Source: Prevotella pallens ATCC 700821 (GTDB lineage: Bacteria > Bacteroidota > Bacteroidia > Bacteroidales > Bacteroidaceae). From it: DNA of 64,000 nt. The DNA lies in the NCBI RefSeq assembly GCF_000220255.1, contig NZ_GL982513.1:938021-1002020 (forward strand), in the 5' to 3' direction. Below the pieces are notes generated by a model. That model was not told the origin of the DNA. It saw nothing but the letters and a program-made list of their open reading frames with translations, and did not search any database. A program made the position numbers and the translations under genes. Of the stretch, positions 4,683 through 64,000 are shown in pieces. Within the stretch, counting starts at the first letter, position 1. Each line of letters starts with the position of its first letter.

Positions 4683-4780
4683 GATAATTATGACCCGAAA
4701 ATTTATAATTAAAAACGCACAAGTTTATTATTATAAATTTTTATTTTGTAATTATAAAATTAAAATTTATAATAATAAAA
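4683..4780. repeat. tandem array, TAATTATA-type core, 21-22 bp period
   Basis: Cores start near 4685, 4706, 4728, 4749 and 4770; the third is degenerate. Intervals are 21-22 bp. The same core and period appear at 60455-60548 and, weaker, at 125-175. The 386-bp gap 4441-4826 otherwise shows only the promoter of the 4440 gene. Confidence 0.55.
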
Positions 4781-4826
4781 TTTCGGAAGACTATTATAGC
4801 CTGATTTTATGTCCTTATTATGAGAA

Positions 4827-9050: not shown

Positions 9051-9419
9051 CCATCATTGAGTGATAAGACAGAAATACTTTTATTGTGAGTTACTTAAAC
9101 AGGAGACTTATTATTTACTATAAGCGTAACCATAAATAGATTTGTATATTTCGTATAAACAGATAGGAAGAATAATGATTCAATAGAGAGATATGTGGGA
9201 AAATTATAGAGGGTGATTACTGTTTACTAAACAATCTAATAGAACAACTCAAATGTTTAGGAAAATTAGCTGGATATATTTACTCGTGTTACAGATATCT
9301 GTTGTATTCTTCTTAGGCATCAGTCTGTTTTGTTTTAGATATTAGTAGATTTTGATTTATACGCCTAAATTTTTAATTAGATATCGCACTGGTCCTGCCA
9401 TATCTTTTAACGATTATAA
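9051..9419. other. non-coding stretch with a decayed 22-bp array
   Basis: No credible reading frame. It holds a 14-mer at 9195-9208 that also occurs at 27147-27160, followed 77 bp later by a decayed version of the AGATATCT array (next feature). The 13-mer CAATCTAATAGAA at 9232-9244 recurs as its reverse complement at 50602-50614. Confidence 0.6.
9272..9386 (+). repeat. decayed array, AGATATCT-type core, 22-bp period
   Basis: Core-like sequences fall at 9272, 9294 (intact), 9316 (degenerate) and 9338, each 22 bp apart; a last GATATC near 9380 is off phase by about 2 bp. The array has the same leader spacing as the one at 27224-27297, so it is a mutated copy of that element. Confidence 0.5.
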
Positions 9420-12869: not shown

Positions 12870-13352
12870 CCTATTTATTTTTTAAATTCTGCAACTTTGG
12901 CAGAGTTTAACAAACTCTAAGAACTTTCTTTCCTATTTATTTGAAACGGCAAACAAGTGTCTTTGTCTATTTTAAATGGCGAATAATGATACGCTGTATT
13001 GTTACGATATCGTTATAAAAGATATAGGAATTCTCTATATTCATATCCTGTTTAAATTCTTATACAAATGGAATTATAATTATGCAACAACACTTTTGCA
13101 ACGCAAAAGTATGGTTTTTACGTTGCAAAACAATGGTTTTTAGCGTGTAAAATGGTGGTTTTTACAATATAAAAACTATGTCTTTTGTATTGCATTGATA
13201 GCCAAACTGTTAAGTGGAGCTACATTTCTGCTTCTATTTCTCCTTCTTTTTTTTATGTCCTGGTTGGGTTTATAGGGGTGTGCTATAAAATTTCAACCTT
13301 AGCAAATGCTAATAATTCTGACCTCATTTCTCGTTATCTAAAAACTTTTGAG
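12870..13352. other. divergent intergenic region
   Basis: 480 bp between the regulator operon and the small membrane protein gene. It holds the ATGGTTTTT array at 13090-13190 and no credible gene. Confidence 0.6.
13086..13190 (+). repeat. tandem array, ATGGTTTTT unit, 22-bp period
   Basis: Three good units with TGGTTTTTA starting at 13112, 13134 and 13156, exactly 22 bp apart, plus a degenerate unit on either side (near 13090 and 13178). Around each centre the sequence is a near-palindrome of the form AAAAcnATngTTTT. The bases between units vary. Confidence 0.65.
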
Positions 13353-21468: not shown

Positions 21469-21551
21469 CAACTCCACAAAAGCATTATAGTAAACAAAGG
21501 CTTAACGGCTTAATCACTCTTCCATTCAGCATCTGTTGCTGATGTAAGTAT

Positions 21552-21588
21552 AGTCTATTCTTCAACCGAAGCAATAGACTTTTTTTTG
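21552..21588 (+). terminator. terminator after the lipid kinase gene
   Basis: Stem AGTCTATT/AATAGACT, 13-base loop, eight T. Confidence 0.85.
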
Positions 21589-21612: not shown

Positions 21613-21810
21613 TATTCATAAGTTTTTTAGTAGAAGCTTATAAGATTCTATTGAATAGCTTATAAGCTTTTATTGAATAGCTTATAAGCTTTTTATTGAT
21701 AGCTTATAAGCTTTTTGTTGATAGCTTATAAGCTTTTTATGAATAGCTTATAAGCTTTTTGTGGATAGCTTATAAGTTTTTTGTGGATAGCTTATAAGCT
21801 TTTGGCAGAA
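21613..21810 (+). repeat. tandem array, 8 units of 22 bp, core CTTATAAG
   Basis: AGCTTATAAG starts at 21635, 21657, 21679, 21701, 21723, 21745, 21767 and 21789, exactly 22 bp apart, with a degenerate unit at 21613. Consensus is ATAGCTTATAAGCTTTTT plus 4-5 variable bases. The core is self-complementary. It lies between convergent genes. The same unit in reverse orientation forms the array at 55685-55866. Further right, 21811-21971 shows nothing I can name. Confidence 0.95.
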
Positions 21811-26851: not shown

Positions 26852-27524
26852 CACATTTTATTTGTAAACAAGTATTTTATTACTTTTTTTTAACCCAAAT
26901 AATTGTCTTGTCTTATTCTGTTATTTAGAACTTGAAAAGATGGATTAACTTTAATGACTGTATAAAGAGATACAACCTTATGTTTTTATTGAATCTATGT
27001 TAGCAGTAAAGGTAGAACAGATTCTATTGTTTATAAAAATATGTCTGCTCTATAGTAAGAATATAATTTTAAGTTTTTTCTGATGAGGCGTATACAGACT
27101 ATTATTCGTTACAAGAAAGCGGAACGAAAGGTTCTGTAAGAAATTGGTGGGAAAATTATAAACAGTTTCTGAAGTTACTCACAAATGAAATAAAATAAAG
27201 CTGGTGTTTGTTGCTTTTGTTTCAGATATCTGTAATGTTCGTTTCAGATATCTGTCACGTTCGTTTCAGATATCTATCAGTTGCGAATTAGATATCACAA
27301 AAAACTGCAACCTTTATAATTCTGTATTATAGTGCCTAAAAGATGTTTCTTTAGATGATAATTATGACATTCTTTATTCTGTACAGTATTAATTTGTATA
27401 TTACTATAATTTGTTGAATAGTAATATATTGCTTAAAAATTCATAGTATAGGAGTGTAACTCTTCACAATAGCCTTCTTTTCTATTGAGCTGAACTAAGA
27501 TATTTGTATTGTAATGGAAATAAC
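26852..27524. other. long non-coding region upstream of the glycogen operon
   Basis: No gene. It contains the leader 14-mer at 27147-27160 and the AGATATCT array at 27213-27300. The rest is AT-rich without structure I can support. Confidence 0.6.
27213..27300 (+). repeat. tandem array, 4 units of 22 bp, core AGATATCT
   Basis: AGATATC starts at 27224, 27246, 27268 and 27290, exactly 22 bp apart. Consensus unit is TTCGTTTCAGATATCTG plus 4-5 variable bases. The last unit is divergent. A leader starts 77 bp before the first core. The reverse complement of this array, including the divergent end unit, is at 50481-50554. Confidence 0.9.
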
Positions 27525-30851: not shown

Positions 30852-31250
30852 ACAAAAAAAGATAGAACGAAAAGATTTTGCTAAAATATTAAGACAATAC
30901 TTGTATTAATTAAATGAGAAAATAACATCTAATAGATTTTTATAAGCATCTGAGATGGATTATTTGTTTGTCATATAAGCCATTTGTTTTGCCAATAAAC
31001 TGTAAATACTGTTTATAATATCTCCATTTCTTTTCTACTGAACCTCCATTTACTCATTCTACCGAATATCAGCTTAAAAATAAAACAAAACAAGATAAAT
31101 GTTGGACATTACTTTATTTTCTAAATAGTGTTTGAAAGTAAATTCTCTTTGTTTTTTTGTGATATAGATGCCAAAATAGCTATACAATATGTATAGAAAT
31201 ATACCTTTTGACAAGTCTCTTGGACATTTTATTTAATATTTATATAATGT
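30852..31250. other. non-coding stretch between divergent units
   Basis: About 400 bp without a gene. CCATTT occurs at 30980, 31024 and 31046, in 22-bp phase, but the core is not self-complementary and I would not call an array. Confidence 0.5.
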
Positions 31251-40969: not shown

Positions 40970-41536
40970 TATTTATGTTCTATATCATATTCTTCTTTTA
41001 TTTTTATTTGGTATAAGTAAAGCTTCTGCAGGTTTGTTCTCTAAATGGCATAGTATAATTTCTTATTGCAAAAACGCAGTTATATTCTTTTGGCGTAATC
41101 AAGCACATTTTATAGAGCGTATTCTATGTATTCCTTTTTAAGCGAATCAACTTTTTTTCGAAAATAGCGCCTATTATTGTAGTATAAATTATTCATTTGT
41201 TTATAATTATCTATTAAGCATAACAAGAAAGTGTCCATAAAGATAGTTAATATAGCAAAAATGCCTATAGTAAAATCAGGAACTGTTAAACCTTAAAAAC
41301 CATAATATTTTTTTTAATGAAAAATGCTATTGTTTTTAATAATAAACTCTATGATTTTTTAATAATAAATTCTATCATTTTTTAATAATAATTTCTTTTG
41401 TTAAAGGAAGAGGGTAGTATTGTTTAGGAAAGAAAGTAATATTGAATTAAAAGAAAAGCTATTTTTACAGTCTTTTCTACCCACAAAGAGTGGAAATTTG
41501 GATCGAAATATATTAAGAACTTTATTCTTTAGATAT
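40970..41536. other. non-coding region with a weak 22-23 bp array
   Basis: About 570 bp without a credible gene. It contains the AT-rich array at 41296-41400. Confidence 0.55.
41296..41400 (+). repeat. AT-rich tandem array, CTATnATTTT unit, 22-23 bp period
   Basis: CTATTG, CTATGA and CTATCA start at 41327, 41349 and 41372, at 22 and 23 bp intervals, each followed by a T run and AATAATAA. An earlier CCATAAT at 41300 is off phase. Weaker than the other arrays. Confidence 0.5.
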
Positions 41537-49984: not shown

Positions 49985-50014
49985 CACTCGCTTTTCAATA
50001 ATGAAAAGAGAAAT

Positions 50015-50110
50015 GGGCAAGTCTCTTACGGTCAGCTCCCTTTTAATCCCCCAGGACGGGAACGTAGCAAGGGCAGAAGGTTGTAGCGACGCGATAAGAA
50101 CCGCTTGCCC
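50015..50110 (+). ncRNA. ffs: signal recognition particle RNA, small bacterial type
   Basis: The RNA scaffold for Ffh in cotranslational targeting. Closing stem GGGCAAG/CTTGCCC, 'GGTCAGC' on the 5' side, and the Ffh-binding apical hairpin CAGG-ACG-GGAA-CGT-AGCA with the GGAA tetraloop at 50059-50062. About 96 bases. tRNA-Thr follows after 5 bases, so both come from one precursor. Confidence 0.93.
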
Positions 50111-50115
50111 ACCTC

Positions 50116-50231: not shown

Positions 50232-50636
50232 CATTATAGTTGTCTGTTTATGTGTCTAAATGTAGACTCTGTGAAAAAGAAAAGAGTATATTTTGAAAAG
50301 CTGGCAAATATAATGATTTCCGCTCCGATATAACAAAATTCTGAATAATGTGTTGTTGCTTAGAGGCTTATAATAATGATTAAATTAAAACAATGCAAAT
50401 AAAAGATTTCCTAACTCTTCAGCTGAATAAATAACTATTAGGCATTATAATATAACCAAATAAAATCTGCAGCTTGTTATGATATCTAATTCGCAACTTA
50501 CAGATATCTGAAACGAATGCGATAGATATCTGCGACGGAAGTTACAGATATCTGAAAGAAGAGTAACTAACATTTAGTTGTTGTTTCTAAATTCAGAAAC
50601 ATTCTATTAGATTGCTGGACAGACAGTAGCAACTGT
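50232..50636. other. non-coding region with array and a minus-strand promoter
   Basis: No gene. A minus-strand -7 box (50304-50311, TATATTTG) with TTTTG 21 bp upstream points toward the SRP/tRNA unit. The AGATATCT array is at 50481-50554. Confidence 0.5.
50478..50560 (-). repeat. tandem array, 4 units of 22 bp, core AGATATCT
   Basis: GATATC starts at 50481, 50503, 50525 and 50547, exactly 22 bp apart. It is the reverse complement of the array at 27213-27300, including the divergent unit (GATATCTAATTCGCAAC) at the same end. Its leader, at about 50617-50643, runs into the stop codon of the 50637 gene. Confidence 0.9.
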
Positions 50637-51098
50637 TTATATTTCCTCTTTATTCTTTTTATAATATAAATAAGAAGTGATAGAAAGCAGCATAAGTAGA
50701 CCAATTATTATGCAATCTTTTAAAGATGGTAAATCTCTTACGTTGGCTGCCAAATAAAACGGAACAGAAAAAAAGAAGAGCGAAGATAGCGTCTTAGCAA
50801 AGTTTGCAAAGTATGTTTTTCTGAACATTAAGTTAAGATCTTTAGTATCAATACCTTGATTTTTTTGCTCGAATATATTTCTCTTTATGTCATAATCTTT
50901 ACTGTAGTGTTGTCCGATACCAAACCAAATGAGTGCCCACGATAGAAAAAAAGTTGCTGATATAAAACCTCCAGTTTCTTCGTCTATGAAATAACTAAAT
51001 GGTCTTTTAGTTATATACAGATATGAACCAAAGACTACTATAACGAATAATATCCATAAACTCATAGATATTAGTCCTCTTTTAAAATGTTTATTCAT
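50637..51098 (-). CDS. hypothetical membrane protein, four helices
   Basis: About 153 residues with membrane segments at about 11-28, 44-62, 98-115 and 125-142 counted from Met at 51098. The open frame extends to 51137, but the -7 box at 51135-51142 lies across that start, so 51098 ('MNKHFKRGLISMS') is used. I do not recognise a family. It stands alone, converging with the SRP/tRNA unit. Confidence 0.7.
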   Translation of the reverse strand: MNKHFKRGLISMSLWILFVIVVFGSYLYITKRPFSYFIDEETGGFISATFFLSWALIWFGIGQHYSKDYDIKRNIFEQKNQGIDTKDLNLMFRKTYFANFAKTLSSLFFFSVPFYLAANVRDLPSLKDCIIIGLLMLLSITSYLYYKKNKEEI

Positions 51099-55136: not shown

Positions 55137-55556
55137 CTACAGCTTACCTTTCTTCTCCGACTTACTCACTTGTTCGTACGACACATCGTTCAACGTGAAA
55201 TATTTAGCCGATGGCGAAAGCTTTACCACAGCTTTCTCTATATGCACATTGGGCTTAAACTTCTCGCCCTTAGGCACCGCTTTACTTTTAAATGATGGTT
55301 TAAGTGTACCCAAATCGCCAAATTCCACAATGTCGCCACTTGCAACAATCTCGCGTGCTATCTCTGTTGAATAGCTTAAAACAGCCGCCACTTCTTGGCG
55401 GGTGAATGTGGTAGCACGAGCCACTTGTGCACAAAAGTTTTCAAAATCAACCCGACGACGATTCGTAGGCTGTGCAATCTGCATAATCTGTTTGCCTTTC
55501 GGACCAACATTTAGTTTACGCTCTACCAAAATGTAACTCAATGATTTTCCTGCCAT
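55137..55556 (-). CDS. HU-related DNA-binding protein (HU_rel type)
   Basis: 139 residues. An HU/IHF-like fold with the Bacteroidetes N-terminal extension 'SYILVERKLNVGPKGKQIMQIAQP', the helical dimer part 'FCAQVARATTFTRQEVAAVLSYS', the 'VEFGDLGTLKPSFKSKAV' saddle and a basic tail. These proteins bind and bend DNA; their exact role is not settled. The promoter is flanked by a 12-bp inverted repeat (see separate entry), which could mean self-regulation. The AAGCTTATAAGCTT array lies just upstream. Confidence 0.92.
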   Translation of the reverse strand: MAGKSLSYILVERKLNVGPKGKQIMQIAQPTNRRRVDFENFCAQVARATTFTRQEVAAVLSYSTEIAREIVASGDIVEFGDLGTLKPSFKSKAVPKGEKFKPNVHIEKAVVKLSPSAKYFTLNDVSYEQVSKSEKKGKL

Positions 55557-55684: not shown

Positions 55685-55866
55685 AAAAAACTTATAAGCT
55701 ATAAATAAAAAGCTTATAAGTTATTATCAAAAAGCTTATAAGCTATTCGCAAAAAGCTTATAAGCTATTTACAGAAAGCTTATAAGCTTTCTATCAAAAA
55801 CTTATAAGTAATTGGTAATAAGCTAATAAGAAGTTGCTAATAAACTAATAAGGAACAATGAAGTTA
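55685..55866 (-). repeat. tandem array, 8 units of 22 bp, core CTTATAAG
   Basis: CTTATAAG or its variants (last two CTAATAAG) starts at 55691, 55713, 55735, 55757, 55779, 55801, 55823 and 55845, exactly 22 bp apart. The unit AAAAAGCTTATAAGCTAT is the reverse complement of that in the array at 21613-21810. It lies between divergent promoters. 55867-56053 shows nothing further I can name. Confidence 0.95.
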
Positions 55867-56084: not shown

Positions 56085-56164
56085 CAAACAGTAATCTTTC
56101 CATTCTCAAACAACATCAAATGAAAACAGAACAAAATAGCAACAATTTAAATAAGCTAACAACA

Positions 56165-58222
56165 ATGAAATCTAAGATTCTTTTAGCCTTGTTTGCGTTA
56201 TTCAGTCTTACAACAATGGCGCAAACCCCAGTACGCTTTAGTGTACAACAAAAGAAAGTATCGCCAACAGAGGTAGATGTTATTTTTACAGGTAAAATCG
56301 ATGCAGGTTGGCACGTATATTCAACAGGACTACCATCTGGCGGACCAACATCAGCAGCACTCACCACAGAAAAAGCTGAAGGCGCACAGCCAATGGGTAA
56401 GCTAACACCACGTGGTAAAGAAATAAACGTATTCGACAAAGTGTTCGAAATGAAACTACGCTACTTCGAACACAGTGTAAGCTTCGTACAGAAATATAAA
56501 ATAACAGGCAAAACTTATAAGATAGCAGGCTATATGGAATATGGCGCATGCAACGACGAAATGTGTATGCCACCTTCTTCAGTAGAGTTTAGCTATTCAG
56601 GCAACGGACCAGCCGATGCACCAGCAGCAACAGAAAACACAGCAGCCAAAGAGGGAGAAAACGAAATAGGCGAAGTGGCAGCTGCACCAGGTGCAACCAC
56701 AGATACAGCAAAGACAGCCGAATTGGGCGGAACAATGCCAGGCGACTCTGTGCAATCAGCAGGAACAAGTGCAGCAACAGCTTCAGAACTTTGGCAACCC
56801 GTAATTAAAGAACTGAAAGCGTTTAGCGCAGAAAAAGACAACAACGACAAGTCGTTATTGGGAATCTTTCTTATGGGTATCGTAGGAGGTTTCATAGCCT
56901 TGCTAACACCTTGCGTATGGCCTATTATTCCAATGACAGTAAGCTTCTTCCTAAAACGTGCTAAAGACGACAAGAAGAAAGGTATTCGCGACGCCGTAAC
57001 CTACGGAATCTCAATCATCGTAATCTATATGGGCTTGGCAGCTGTTATAACAGCCCTGTTCGGTCCGCAGAAACTGAACGAACTCGCAACAAACGCACCG
57101 TTCAACATCTTCTTCTTCCTAATGTTGGTAGTATTCGCATTGAGTTTCTTCGGCTGGTTCGAACTCCGTTTGCCAGCATCGTGGGGAAATGCAATCGACA
57201 ACAAGGCAGCAGCAACAACAGGCTTGCTTTCCATCTTCCTGATGGCATTCACACTTTCTTTGGTGTCATTCTCTTGTACAGCACCGGTAGTAGGACTTCT
57301 TCTTGTACAAGCAGCCACAAGTGGCGACTGGGTAGCACCAGCAATAGGTATGTTTGGTTTTGCATTTGCATTAGCCTTGCCTTTCACACTGTTTGCATTG
57401 TTCCCAACATGGCTGAAGCAAGCACCTAAATCAGGTTCATGGATGAATATGATTAAGGTAGTATTAGGCTTCATAGAATTAGCATTCGCTTTCAAGTTCC
57501 TATCAGTTGCCGACCTTGCATACGGCTGGCGTATACTCGACAGAGAAACATTCCTCGCAATATGGATTGTTATCTTTGGAATAATGGGACTCTACCTCAT
57601 TGGTAAAGTTAAATTCCCACACGACGACCAAACACAAACAGCTATGCCAGTACCTGCAATTATGCTTGGTATGATATCTTTAGCCTTCACAGTATATATG
57701 GTTCCAGGTCTTTGGGGTGCACCTTTGAAAGCTGTTAGTGCATTTGCACCACCTATTTACACACAAGACTTCAACTTGCACCATCAAGAAGTAGAACCAA
57801 AATACAAAGATTACGAAGAAGGTATGCGTGCTGCTGCACAAGCAGGAAAGCCAGTCTTGCTCGACTTTACAGGATTTGGTTGTGTAAACTGTCGTAAGAT
57901 GGAAGGTGCAGTGTGGACAAACGCAGAAGTTGCAGAGAAACTTAACAACGACTACATATTGATTTCGCTCTACGTAGACGATAAAACTCCGCTGAAAGAA
58001 CCTATTAAAGTAAAACGTCCCGATGGAACAACACGTACATTACGTACAGTCGGCGATAAATGGAGTTATTTGGAAGAATCTAAATTCGGATATCTGGCAC
58101 AACCATTCTATGTAACGGTAGACAATCATGGAAAACCACTTAGTGGTAGCTTCGTTTACAAAGAAGACATTCCTGGTTATCTCGACTTCCTAAATAAAGG
58201 TATTGAAAACTATAAGAAGTAA
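56165..58222 (+). CDS. dsbD: thiol:disulfide interchange protein DsbD
   Basis: Carries electrons from cytosolic thioredoxin to the periplasm. Met at 56165 gives a clean signal peptide (MKSKILLALFALFSL...); ATG 56120 gives 15 extra residues. An N-terminal periplasmic immunoglobulin-like domain (about 20-150), a Glu/Ala/Thr linker, eight membrane helices (about 235-550) with Cys in 'LLTPCVWPIIPM' and 'VSFSCTAPVVG', and a C-terminal thioredoxin domain with CVNC in 'FTGFGCVNCRKMEG'. The N-terminal domain has 'CNDEMCMPP'. All redox Cys are present. Monocistronic. Confidence 0.96.
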   Translation: MKSKILLALFALFSLTTMAQTPVRFSVQQKKVSPTEVDVIFTGKIDAGWHVYSTGLPSGGPTSAALTTEKAEGAQPMGKLTPRGKEINVFDKVFEMKLRYFEHSVSFVQKYKITGKTYKIAGYMEYGACNDEMCMPPSSVEFSYSGNGPADAPAATENTAAKEGENEIGEVAAAPGATTDTAKTAELGGTMPGDSVQSAGTSAATASELWQPVIKELKAFSAEKDNNDKSLLGIFLMGIVGGFIALLTPCVWPIIPMTVSFFLKRAKDDKKKGIRDAVTYGISIIVIYMGLAAVITALFGPQKLNELATNAPFNIFFFLMLVVFALSFFGWFELRLPASWGNAIDNKAAATTGLLSIFLMAFTLSLVSFSCTAPVVGLLLVQAATSGDWVAPAIGMFGFAFALALPFTLFALFPTWLKQAPKSGSWMNMIKVVLGFIELAFAFKFLSVADLAYGWRILDRETFLAIWIVIFGIMGLYLIGKVKFPHDDQTQTAMPVPAIMLGMISLAFTVYMVPGLWGAPLKAVSAFAPPIYTQDFNLHHQEVEPKYKDYEEGMRAAAQAGKPVLLDFTGFGCVNCRKMEGAVWTNAEVAEKLNNDYILISLYVDDKTPLKEPIKVKRPDGTTRTLRTVGDKWSYLEESKFGYLAQPFYVTVDNHGKPLSGSFVYKEDIPGYLDFLNKGIENYKK

Positions 58223-60222: not shown

Positions 60223-60728
60223 ATATACTGTTTTTATCTCCATTGCACGTTTTCTTTAATAGAATACAGCTTTTTATATCTTCTATTGCAATCCTAAGTG
60301 GTTATTCTTTATTTTACACTTATTTACTGCCTTTATATTCTTGTTTTTATAAAAATATACGCATTACTTACTGATTCTTTTGGTATTATTTTAAGAAATC
60401 AAAACGGAGAATATATCGAAGTTCTTGAAATGGAATTAGATTGAGTGTGGAATATAATTATAAAAATAAAAAACATAATTATAAATTCAGAAGTTCTAAT
60501 TATATTTTTAATAAAATCTAATTATGTTTTCTCCATTAGTTATATTCTCCCTCTCGAAAGGTTTTACTTTCTATTTGAAAAGTAGTGCTTTGTTCTTCCT
60601 AATAATCAAAAGAACATAAGCTTTATATAAGTCCCATTTTTAGAAGTTTGCCATTATCCATTGTCATTCTACAACCATTTCCACAACTTTCTTACATAAA
60701 CTCCAGTCTATATTTAAGGCAAAAGTTG
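60223..60728. other. non-coding region upstream of mfd
   Basis: No gene. It contains the TAATTATA array at 60451-60548; the rest shows no clear element. Confidence 0.55.
60451..60548. repeat. tandem array, 5 units, core TAATTATA, 21-22 bp period
   Basis: TAATTATA starts at 60455, 60476, 60497 and 60519 (TAATTATG) and a weak copy at 60541; intervals 21, 21, 22 and 22. Spacers vary. Same family as 4683-4780. Confidence 0.75.
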
Positions 60729-60736
60729 TATCTTTG
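60729..60736 (+). promoter_or_regulatory. -7 box of mfd
   Basis: TATCTTTG, 50 bp before the ATG; -33 weak. Confidence 0.6.
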
Positions 60737-60786
60737 TACTTCAAAAAAAGTAAAATCTAACAGTTTGTTGAAACGCAATAATTGCG

Positions 60787-63700
60787 ATGAATATACAAGA
60801 CATACAGAAATTATATGGGGTATTGCCTCAAGGCAATGCTTTGATAAAAACAATGGAGGAAAAGTCGGTACGAACCATTTTTCTTCAAGGATTATTGGCT
60901 TCTGCCACACCAATGTTTTTTGCTTCAATAGTAAAAAGATGGCAGAAAACAGTACTGTTTGTGCTGAACGATAACGACGAAGCGGGCTATTTCTATAATG
61001 ATTTAAAGACAATAGCAATGCCCGACAATGCAAACGAACAAACTGCTGAAGTTTTATTCTTTCCTTCCTCTTATCGTAGAGCAGTAAAATATGGTCAACG
61101 CGATGCCGGAAACGAGATATTACGTACTGAAGTTTTGTCGCATTTGTCTGTTATTAACGAAGAGAAAACTACATCTTCGTTGCCTCTTTGTATTGTTACT
61201 GAACCTTCGGCATTGGCAGAATTGGTGGTTGCCAAACATAAATTAGACGAACATACTTTGTCTATAAGCGTCGGACAGACGATAGACCTAACAGAAACAG
61301 AGAAAACTTTACGCTCTTATGGCTTCCAACAAGTAGATTATGTGTATGAACCAGGTCAGTTTGCCGTGCGTGGTAGCATTCTTGATGTCTATTCTTTTTC
61401 GAGCGAATTACCATATCGTATCGATTTTTTCGGTAATGATGTAGACACAATTCGTACATTCGAGGTGGAAACACAGTTATCGAAAGATAAAAAAGAAAAG
61501 GTAGAAGTTGTACCAGAATTGGCAACATTGAGCGAAGAGAAAATACCCTTTTTGCAGTTTCTTCCAAAAAATTCGGTTCTCGTAATGAAAGATTTGTTGT
61601 ATATTCATGACACAATTGAGCGTATTTACAACGAAGGCTTCACTGCACAAGCACTTACCGAACAACTTGAAGGCAAAACAGAGATAGAACAAAACGAGTT
61701 GAGAAAACAACTGCAGGCAAATATTCAACTTGTAACAGCACAACAATTTGCTGATGATGCTCTAAATTTTAAGCGAATTGAATTTGGAGCAAAGCATGTA
61801 AACGAAGAAGCTATTATACATTTTAATATATCGCCTCAACCACTTTTCCACAAAAACTTTGAATTGCTTACGCAGTCATTGAAAGATTATCTGTTGCAAG
61901 GGTATAAACTTTATATTCTTGCAGACAGCGAAAAACAAACAACTCGTTTGCGCGATATATTCAATAGTAAAGAAATAAATAGCGAAGCCGAAACAACTTC
62001 AGTAGCAGATAGCATTCCTTTTATACCCGTTAACAGAACCATTCATGAAGGTTTTGTAGACAACGATTTGAAAGTTTGTTTTTTTACCGACCATCAAATA
62101 TTCGATCGTTTCCATAAATACAGTTTAAAGTCAGATAAAGCCCGACAAGGAAAGATGGCTCTTACAATGAAAGAATTGCAAGAGATGGAACCAGGCGATT
62201 TTCTTGTTCATGTTGATTTTGGTATTGGCAAATTTGCAGGTTTAGTGCGTGTTCCTGCTGGCGAATCTTATCAGGAAATGATACGTTTGGTGTATCAGCA
62301 CAACGATATTGTTGACGTTTCTATCCATTCGCTTTACAAAATTAGTAAGTATCGCCGTGCAGATAGTGGCGATGCTGCCCCACGTCTTTCAGTTCTCGGC
62401 TCTGGAGCTTGGGATAGACTTAAGGAAAAAGCAAAGAAACGCATTAAGGATATTGCCCGCGATTTAATAAAACTATACGCTAAACGTCGGCATGAAAAAG
62501 GCTATTCTTTCTCGCCCGACTCGTATATGCAGCATGAATTGGAGGCTTCTTTCCTTTATGAAGATACACCCGATCAGCTGAAAGCAACGCAAGACTTGAA
62601 GCAAGATATGGAAAGTTCTCGTCCAATGGATAGATTAGTTTGTGGAGACGTAGGTTTTGGCAAGACAGAAGTTGCAGTGCGCGCTGCTTTTAAAGCTGCA
62701 ACCGATGGAAAACAAGTGGCAGTGCTCGTTCCAACTACAGTACTCGCATTCCAACATTATCAAACTTTCAAGAAGAGACTGAAGGATATGCCTGTTACGG
62801 TAGACTATCTTTCGCGAGCAAGAACAGCTAAACAAACCAAACAAGTATTGGCAGATTTAGCAGAAGGGAAGATAGATATTCTTGTGGGAACGCATAAGCT
62901 GATAAGCAAAAATGTGAAATGGAAAGATATTGGCTTGTTAATCATTGATGAAGAGCAGAAATTTGGTGTTTCTACAAAAGAAAAACTGCGCCAACTGAAA
63001 AGTAATATCGACACACTTACTATGTCGGCAACTCCTATTCCTCGTACTTTACAATTCTCTTTAATGGGAGCAAGAGATATGAGTATTATGCGAACTCCAC
63101 CGCCCAACCGTTATCCTATTCAAACAGAAATTGCAACTTTCTCGGCAGAAGTAATTGCAGATGCAATAAACTTTGAAATGAGTCGCAACGGACAAGTATT
63201 TTTTGTGAACGACCGAATAGCAAACTTGCCAGAATTAGCAAGTCTTATCAAGAAAAATGTGCCCGATTGTCGTGTAGCAATAGGACATGGGCAGATGAAA
63301 CCCGAAGAGTTGGAAGAAATTATTATTGGTTTTATGAACCACGATTACGATGTGTTGCTTTCAACAACCATTGTCGAAAACGGTATCGATATATCAAACG
63401 CCAATACCATCATAATAAACGATGCACATAAGTTCGGACTTTCAGACCTTCACCAAATGAGAGGACGCGTGGGACGTTCTAATAAAAAAGCATTCTGTTA
63501 TTTACTTGCACCGCCATTGGCAGCTTTAAATCCAGATGCACGCCGTCGTTTGGAGGCTTTGGAAACATTCTCCGACCTTGGTAGTGGTTTCAGTTTGGCA
63601 ATGCAAGACCTCGATATTCGTGGCGCAGGCAATCTTCTTGGAGCTGAACAAAGTGGATTTATGGAAGATTTAGGCTACGAAACATATCAGAAAATATTGA

Positions 63701-64000
63701 ATCAGGCTGTAACCGAACTTAAGAACGATGAGTTTCAAGACCTTTATACGGAGGAAATGGCAGAAGGAAAACAGCTCTCTGGCGATGATTTTGTAGACGA
63801 TTGTGCCGTAGAAAGCGACCTCGAAATGTATTTCCCCGATACGTATGTACCTGGAAGTTCAGAACGAATGTTACTTTATCGCGAACTCGATAACATTGAA
63901 AACGATGTACAATTAGACGCCTATCGCAAACGATTGGAAGACCGTTTCGGACCAATTCCACGTCAAGGAATAGAATTAATGCAAGTAGTTTCGCTCCGCC
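60787..64000 (+). CDS. mfd: transcription-repair coupling factor Mfd, 5' part
   Basis: The gene is open to the end of the window, with no stop, giving 1071 residues of an expected 1100-1200. Mfd releases RNA polymerase stalled at lesions and recruits UvrA. Order: UvrB-like N-terminal domain (about 1-340), RNA-polymerase-interacting domain (about 465-540; 'PGDFLVHVDFGIGKFAGL'), helicase motifs 'CGDVGFGKTEVAVRAAF' (Walker A), 'LIIDEEQKFGV' (DEEQ), 'TMSATPIPRTL', 'QVFFVNDRI', 'QMRGRVGRSNKKAFCYLL', and the start of the C-terminal UvrA-binding domain. Start ATG 60787 opens 'MNIQDIQKLYGVLPQ'. The missing C-terminus lies to the right. Confidence 0.97.
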   Translation, partial: MNIQDIQKLYGVLPQGNALIKTMEEKSVRTIFLQGLLASATPMFFASIVKRWQKTVLFVLNDNDEAGYFYNDLKTIAMPDNANEQTAEVLFFPSSYRRAVKYGQRDAGNEILRTEVLSHLSVINEEKTTSSLPLCIVTEPSALAELVVAKHKLDEHTLSISVGQTIDLTETEKTLRSYGFQQVDYVYEPGQFAVRGSILDVYSFSSELPYRIDFFGNDVDTIRTFEVETQLSKDKKEKVEVVPELATLSEEKIPFLQFLPKNSVLVMKDLLYIHDTIERIYNEGFTAQALTEQLEGKTEIEQNELRKQLQANIQLVTAQQFADDALNFKRIEFGAKHVNEEAIIHFNISPQPLFHKNFELLTQSLKDYLLQGYKLYILADSEKQTTRLRDIFNSKEINSEAETTSVADSIPFIPVNRTIHEGFVDNDLKVCFFTDHQIFDRFHKYSLKSDKARQGKMALTMKELQEMEPGDFLVHVDFGIGKFAGLVRVPAGESYQEMIRLVYQHNDIVDVSIHSLYKISKYRRADSGDAAPRLSVLGSGAWDRLKEKAKKRIKDIARDLIKLYAKRRHEKGYSFSPDSYMQHELEASFLYEDTPDQLKATQDLKQDMESSRPMDRLVCGDVGFGKTEVAVRAAFKAATDGKQVAVLVPTTVLAFQHYQTFKKRLKDMPVTVDYLSRARTAKQTKQVLADLAEGKIDILVGTHKLISKNVKWKDIGLLIIDEEQKFGVSTKEKLRQLKSNIDTLTMSATPIPRTLQFSLMGARDMSIMRTPPPNRYPIQTEIATFSAEVIADAINFEMSRNGQVFFVNDRIANLPELASLIKKNVPDCRVAIGHGQMKPEELEEIIIGFMNHDYDVLLSTTIVENGIDISNANTIIINDAHKFGLSDLHQMRGRVGRSNKKAFCYLLAPPLAALNPDARRRLEALETFSDLGSGFSLAMQDLDIRGAGNLLGAEQSGFMEDLGYETYQKILNQAVTELKNDEFQDLYTEEMAEGKQLSGDDFVDDCAVESDLEMYFPDTYVPGSSERMLLYRELDNIENDVQLDAYRKRLEDRFGPIPRQGIELMQVVSLR

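Follow-up and report, generated by a model that had tools for sequence, protein, structure and literature searches.

Among the closest described counterparts of the repeats considered here is PINSR, a 188-bp intergenic repeat present in 177–184 copies in Prevotella intermedia, one of them downstream of tnaA in strain ATCC 25611, and also reported from P. nigrescens, P. falsenii and P. disiens, being confined to some species of one clade (PMC4755523). According to its authors PINSR has no terminal inverted repeats, about three-quarters of its copies are common to two strains, and its function was left open (PMC4755523). The arrays described below fall into at least four families, unrelated in sequence, with a common 22-bp period: A (AGATATCT), B (AGCT-TATA-AGCT, the array at 21635–21803), C (TTTACTTACRYGTAAGTAAA) and D (TTTTGC-nnn-GCAAAA dyads with 7-mer words between them), in agreement with the original prediction that one period would be found with different cores. 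PINSR, as family D, is very probably an already named member of this class of Prevotella non-coding repeats, while families A, B and C have other cores and flanks, as judged by eye with family D standing in for PINSR. The accessible text of the PINSR paper describes neither a 22-bp dyad architecture, which we find in D, nor an exchange of words, which we propose for it (PMC4755523). BrickBuilt of Porphyromonas gingivalis has 19 copies with 23-nt repeats of one unit sequence inside a leader and a tail, and ends most like ISPg1 and ISPg9 (PMC4596501). As far as its accessible description goes, it resembles our arrays in being an interspersed, intergenic tandem repeat of variable unit number with a leader and a tail, which are matched by the flanks of A and D but not of B; it differs in its single-sequence 23-nt unit, against 22 bp and several unrelated palindromic families here. 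BOX of Streptococcus pneumoniae is likewise dispersed, with end modules and a variable number of internal modules, but comes from another phylum, has other sequences, and is given no fixed 22-bp dyad spacing in the available part of its description (PMC3049150). PINSR and BrickBuilt are already known and BOX is an analogue, and the earlier statement that no named Bacteroidales element is like these arrays has to be withdrawn, since D matches PINSR of P. intermedia and P. nigrescens and BrickBuilt is a close architectural analogue. A 22-bp dyad lattice common to unrelated Prevotella repeats, and a change of words at orthologous Prevotella repeat sites, were not found in the open-access literature, most subscription papers lying outside this search.

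The 64-kb stretch analysed here (the window) occupies positions 938021–1002020 of contig C1 in a 3.13-Mb draft genome of 40 contigs. Judged from a single flanking protein, the named species closest to this genome are P. falsenii (87%) and P. aurantiaca (86%), same-genome records possibly having been omitted. The family B array on the plus strand at 21635–21803 consists of eight AGCTTATAAGCT cores, some of them varied, exactly 22 bp apart; the eight CTTATAAG cores start, as predicted, at 21637, 21659, 21681, 21703, 21725, 21747, 21769 and 21791. It sits in a convergent gap between the ends of a lipid-kinase-like gene (21468) and a GH57 gene (22046). A second B array on the minus strand (55685–55852), with six CTTATAAG cores and degenerate units at 22 bp, is flanked by the starts of an HU-HIG gene (55137–55556, minus) and a DsbD-like gene (56120–58222, plus), and the pattern CTTATAAG-N13-15-CTTATAAG is matched 12 times in the window, where 100 shuffles give an expectation of 0.00. 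Family A is represented by an interspersed element on the plus strand, with its left flank from 27122 and its right flank to 27438 around a AGATATCT array of four GATATC cores (27224–27297), and by an element of opposite orientation (50334–50700, minus) with its AGATATCT array at 50480–50553. There are also a left-flank match at 9171–9316 (plus, E 2.8e-18) with no recognised array and a partial left-flank match at 30923–31056 (minus, E 5.8e-12). A PINSR-like family D array lies at 13094–13165 (plus), with TTTTGC-nnn-GCAAAA dyads at 22 bp and the words GTATGGT and CAATGGT. In each of these five solid arrays (taken as 13094–13165, 21635–21803, 27219–27296, 50480–50557 and 55685–55852) the identity at lag 22 was reached by 0 of 1000 dinucleotide shuffles. 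The count of about ten arrays in the window given earlier was not confirmed: five are solid at lag 22, and three AT-rich tracts, probably counted among the ten, peak at other lags. Of these, 108–159 was excluded from the class with a peak at lag 21, and 4699–4783 (lag 21, with TAATTATA or its complement present twice, 45 bp apart) and 41310–41396 (lag 23), neither assigned a strand, were judged to lie outside it. A search of the window with Rfam returned one SRP RNA and two tRNAs; the former, a Bacteroidales small SRP RNA (50008–50114), adjoins a tRNA gene and lies 366 bp from a family A array. Separately, 60453–64000 is 95% identical over 3.5 kb to P. aurantiaca (L228, 12254–15795), while P. 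falsenii and G450 reach 84–85% along most of its length; recent exchange or a strongly conserved gene is possible.

Beyond the window, 464 kb of this genome (20 samples plus the window) gave 75 tandem arrays with TRF, 59 of period 22, 44 or 66, 7 of period 21 or 23 and 9 of other periods; several samples were placed at known arrays, so that their density is no genome average. Five of the 59 were at sample edges; the remaining 54 could be classified, and not one of them lay inside a called gene, which agrees with the non-coding location claimed for the class, while 4 of the 7 arrays of period 21 or 23 did; the calls came from a simple codon-usage script that missed some genes (66% coding). Across 400 kb of sequence from this genome, distances of 22 and 44 bp are overrepresented between identical 8-bp palindromes, with 67 pairs of AGATATCT and 24 of CTTATAAG at 22 bp and at most one of any other core (N runs set aside), and a pattern search of the whole genome found 274 AGATATCT pairs at 21–23 bp against 4 for the reversed control. 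The enrichment at 22 bp expected of a genome-wide scan of palindrome spacing is present, in a check that covered samples and chosen patterns. Family C has 81/82 matches at two mismatches or fewer against 0/1 for the control, and its left flanks look alike by eye; the matches listed amount to at least about 22 sites, all on contig C1. We considered C for this reason as a chromosome-specific marker, yet family A also occurs on contig C2, and that reading was dropped. No strand or replichore signal was seen, the GC skew of the 20-kb samples having no clean switch and the orientation of family A being mixed. By eye, C2 also carries another 22-bp family, TTTTGGCAATCTGTT (L065, 15647–15755 and 19068–19186), followed by a stretch of 11-bp rhythm (TTCGCAACGCA, TTCGCAATCCG).

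The spacing is rigid. Among successive cores within 60 bp, GATATC is found 88 times at 22 bp and never at 21 or 23, CTTATAAG 36 times at 22 and once each at 21 and 15, and TTACRYGTAA 12 times at 22 and once each at 21 and 23. The core is also better kept than the spacer, as had been expected: among 60 middle units of family A, picked by their outer neighbours only and compared in a common orientation, 55 have an exact AGATATCT core, and core columns hold 1.8–2.0 bits against 0.3–1.8 bits for spacer columns, some of the latter being conserved nearly at core level (up to 1.76 bits). The A spacer, GTCACGTTCGTYTC, contains ACG-TT-CGT, symmetric except in the middle, whose ACG..CGT arms form a second, weaker dyad centred 11 bp from the core. 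One might suppose that the arrays are neutral minisatellites, produced by a duplication mechanism that favours 22-bp steps, with the palindromy incidental. Neighbouring spacers of one array are indeed more alike (similarity of 0.707, n = 38) than spacers from different arrays (0.645; 0 of 2000 permutations), B arrays at one orthologous locus span 149, 171 and 171 bp from anchor to anchor in three genomes, a difference in unit number between species of exactly one 22-bp step, B arrays have no shared flanks, and some 22-bp arrays, among them some in relatives, have no clear or strong palindrome. Such a process, however, would not readily keep the A core exact in 55 of the 60 middle units while never producing a spacing of 21 or 23 bp, nor would it readily give identical cores at numerous unlinked places, a last A unit with its own consensus (79/53 matches against 3/3 for the control), or a B frame that recurs in several species, and we consider it unlikely.

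Three features, namely the dyads, a spacing that puts them on the same helix face, and the fact that the cores survive, together suggest recognition of the DNA by dimers. It counts against this that two turns of B-DNA amount to 21 bp at 10.5 bp per turn, so that a 22-bp step requires an in vivo repeat near 11 bp or a protein lattice. MetJ and ParR are dimeric proteins of this kind, acting on tandem operators or centromere repeats made of short repeats or palindromes at helical spacing; their sites are few, at one or a few loci, in contrast to the scores of arrays per genome with changing cores seen here. The reading that we favour, at somewhat less than even confidence, is that the arrays are the phased palindromic cores of Prevotella non-coding repeats, with dyads bound by dimers and words exchanged by recombination. 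The 22-bp spacing would then be kept because dimeric DNA-binding proteins occupy dyads on one helix face two turns apart (22 = 2 x 11), and words would change because units are exchanged among many copies by recombination through the common frame, each species perhaps drifting toward its own word set. A broader version, in which a genus-wide intergenic class has its 22-bp dyad lattice conserved under selection and the palindromic or 7-mer words are swappable modules, replaced from species to species as they track the changing specificity of one or more dimeric proteins coating such sites throughout the genome, is in our opinion doubtful.

Family A arrays form the centre of a larger interspersed repeat. 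The 464-kb sample contains 33 of them with 2–5 cores each, 19 of which end in AGATATCA; the AGATATCT matches listed, for up to 1.27 Mb of C1, cover at least 43 sites, and those listed for the end unit include about 8 sites on C2. Column information from 25 of the 33 copies is 0.8–1.1 bits for 100 bp of left flank and 0.4–0.6 beyond, and 0.5–1.0 bits for about 220 bp of right flank and then 0.3–0.5. Flank models were built without 5 of the 33 arrays, which stayed in the searched sequence, and found no copy at E ≤ 0.1 in 110 stretches or loci of relatives (L068–L177). Orientation of A relative to co-directional neighbours was the same in 11 cases and opposite in 6, with no clear bias. Dispersed, intergenic elements with conserved flanks bring to mind MITEs, that is, non-autonomous transposons moved in trans, whose dyads would be transposase sites. 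Consistent with this, 15 of the 33 A copies have their best match to GTTCAGTAGAAAATAG at a distance of 112–117 bp on the left side of the array, three copies have both end motifs with at most two mismatches (spans of 403, 414 and 521 bp), and a D element of P. aurantiaca is absent from the orthologous site here (408 bp against 165 bp). The A end motifs, on the other hand, score a mean best match of 10.8 on the left and 10.7 on the right against 9.7 and 10.2 for shuffles, the right end being weak, and PINSR is without terminal inverted repeats as its authors describe it (PMC4755523). In the search for target-site duplications, the intergenic sequences of occupied and empty sites proved too diverged. 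The scan of the 464-kb sample for A end-motif pairs, moreover, showed no autonomous partner: it found five pairs, of which the three of 403–521 bp enclose arrays, one of 647 bp (L053) encloses none, and the last spans 2351 bp (L062). We therefore regard transposition of this kind as improbable. Movement as REP elements by RAYT (Y1) transposases would fit repeats that are palindromic, intergenic and species-specific, but PF01797 occurs in only 1 of 13 Prevotella genomes and is absent from this one and from P. falsenii, P. aurantiaca and P. histicola, an absence that rules out this origin in the genomes searched and makes it exceedingly unlikely overall.

Family B presents a different picture. 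Its arrays occur at about seven places in this genome, those on C1 all between 871 and 1194 kb. Comparison of six loci for shared flanks gave only two matches, of 16 and 28 bp (E 0.035), so that spread as an element is not supported for the array at 21635–21803, and the proposal that a class of elements spreads and acquires new cores in doing so fits A and D in part and is not supported for B. The B frame AGCTnnnnAGCT at 21–23 bp is present in 11 of 150 genomes of the genus, this one included, with 50 matches per strand, against 6, spread over five genomes, for the reversed control; one array of G056 mixes the inner cores TATA, CTTA and CCTA, and G445, among the 11, has a 21-bp repeat of another kind. 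On C2, directly 3' of a tRNA-Glu gene (L066, 9280–9394), a pair of CTTATAAG cores separated by 15 bp is accompanied by a T tract and resembles an intrinsic terminator.

This brings us to RNA, since the palindromes might fold in transcripts and act as terminators or processing sites. B units have the form AAAAAGCT-TATA-AGCTTTTT, and, given the short-loop pair and T tract behind tRNA-Glu, family B may have RNA roles. In family D, the words on either side of the dyad can pair at all seven bases in 11 of 70 cases, and these pairing words differ among P. falsenii, P. aurantiaca and P. histicola; the other 59 dyads, however, fail to pair fully. Covariation is not supported for family A: RNAalifold on 11 aligned elements out of 15 four-core arrays found two-sided change in 1 of 23 pairs, core covariation saying little here because A core pairs hardly vary. 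Nor are convergent gaps preferred, as terminators would suggest, the 54 classified arrays lying in 12 convergent, 12 divergent and 30 co-directional gaps in keeping with the intergenic bases available (23.7, 25.5 and 61.6 kb, respectively). By eye, other terminator-like hairpins already lie ahead of the array, in P. falsenii and at ~21551–21588 here. RNA hairpins as the general explanation thus seem to us rather improbable.

Family D likewise forms the centre of larger interspersed repeats with conserved flanks, which in P. falsenii and P. aurantiaca are ~55 bp long on the left and ~65 bp on the right and frequently enclose three dyads and four 7-mer words. Strict D patterns number 16/13 in this genome, 81/74 in P. 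falsenii, 45/63 in P. aurantiaca and 44/41 in P. histicola; each of the seven remaining genomes among the 11 searched has at most one, and the control gave 0. P. disiens (G369) has 0/1 strict junctions and D-like arrays in L190 and L191. In the close relative G450 one copy measures 188 bp from one outermost conserved motif of the consensus to the other, end motifs that were chosen with the published 188 bp in mind, an earlier estimate of the length having been about 210 bp. This D element lies 229 bp downstream of a tnaA-like beta-eliminating-lyase gene (527 bits, below the tnaA model's curated cut-off of 825.8); downstream of the tnaA-like gene no D was seen in G361 and G362, the gene of G369 was unmatched, and this genome is N-masked there. 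Family D and PINSR, as far as the latter's accessible description goes, are alike in intergenic site, length of 188 bp, presence in P. falsenii and P. disiens and high copy number, with a tnaA-like gene beside the copy of one close relative. From these features we consider the two very probably the same. D-like arrays occur here in P. aurantiaca and P. histicola as well, and PINSR was reported, in the accessible text, from species of one clade. We note that in L187 of P. aurantiaca D arrays recur every ~3.6–4.0 kb (1250, 4902, 8554, 12541 and 16160), apparently between paralogous genes, the DNA between them repeatedly matching one stretch of L065.

How far the 22-bp period extends among relatives can be judged from samples that were partly chosen for matches. 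Within the family, 22 bp is the commonest TRF period (34 of 105 arrays, or 21 of 66 without G005, G150 and G092, which were given extra stretches after a first match), against 1 of 18 in the class outside the family and 0 of 3 elsewhere in the phylum (34/105 versus 1/21, Fisher p 0.008). P. falsenii and P. aurantiaca, whose contigs were mostly picked by D matches, each have 11 of 15 arrays at 22 bp, and G450 has 30 of 46. Many small samples contain no 22-bp array, as in P. ihumii (0 of 1 in 40 kb) or P. nanceiensis and S. buccae (20 kb each), while G136 (2 of 2) and G164 (1 of 1), taken as genomes of the latter two, do. AGATATCT arrays at 21–23 bp occur in 8 of 301 genomes, this one included, and in the seven others, all of the family, the spacers differ from those here; a 30-bp stretch of G095, AGATATCTTCTACGGCCGTAGAAGATATCT, is fully palindromic. 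The reversed control TCTATAGA at 21–23 bp has 11 matches in G074 and 9 in G110, where it is another core near the 22-bp period. Genome counts include a few duplicates (G385/G361, with identical places, G164/G365 and G136/G366). Two further observations are a 22-bp family built on GCAC-n4/5-GTGC dyads, found in several genomes that are placed in the genus (L098, L096, L099, L072 of G092, L070 of G056 and L103 of G164), and long arrays of a 77-bp unit in G450 (L240, 2420–3238 and 4315–6580, about 10.6 and 29.5 copies).

Orthologous sites show what changes and what stays. Cores differ between species at one site, as is seen downstream of the GH57 gene: the array there belongs to B in this genome and to D in P. 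aurantiaca and P. histicola, whose words differ, and P. falsenii and P. corporis showed no array. Of these four, P. aurantiaca alone also shares the other neighbouring gene. The D array at 13094–13165, with GTATGGT and CAATGGT, corresponds to an array with CCTACGC and CCTACGG in P. falsenii. Six orthologous D pairs were found, and in the three of equal length words mismatch at 29 of 63 positions and the frame at 1 of 72 (Fisher p 6e-11), a contrast partly built in, as D arrays were found by their frame. Five of the nine words in these pairs changed at 5–6 of 7 bases, and in one pair the flanks are 92% identical. Words that change in blocks while the frame stays intact suggest that copies exchange them, as read from the words themselves. 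In 22 orthologous gaps, arrays are present in both genomes in 4, only here in 1, only in the relative in 2 and in neither in 15, presence being confounded by gap length, with 13 of the 15 array-less gaps under 270 bp here. The association gives p 0.0008 with the region of the window's B array in P. aurantiaca set to ‘both’, by eye because the D array there falls under the TRF cut-off, and 0.009 without it. At one site, described above, D is an insertion difference.

About three-quarters of PINSR copies being common to two strains, movement of this element would be slow, and for the same reason we lean toward a host protein as the putative dyad-binding protein.

The dyad lattice would describe the interior of PINSR, an element to which its discoverers assigned no function. 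Should the elements be only selfish, the differences in words at the same sites make exchange between dispersed bacterial repeats testable, and, if our reading is true, the arrays offer a natural series of core and spacing variants for asking why 22 bp persists. If the lattice is bound by protein, Prevotella chromosomes would bear scores of phased binding platforms, and a genus common in mouth and gut would have a level of chromosome organisation or regulation that has gone unstudied.
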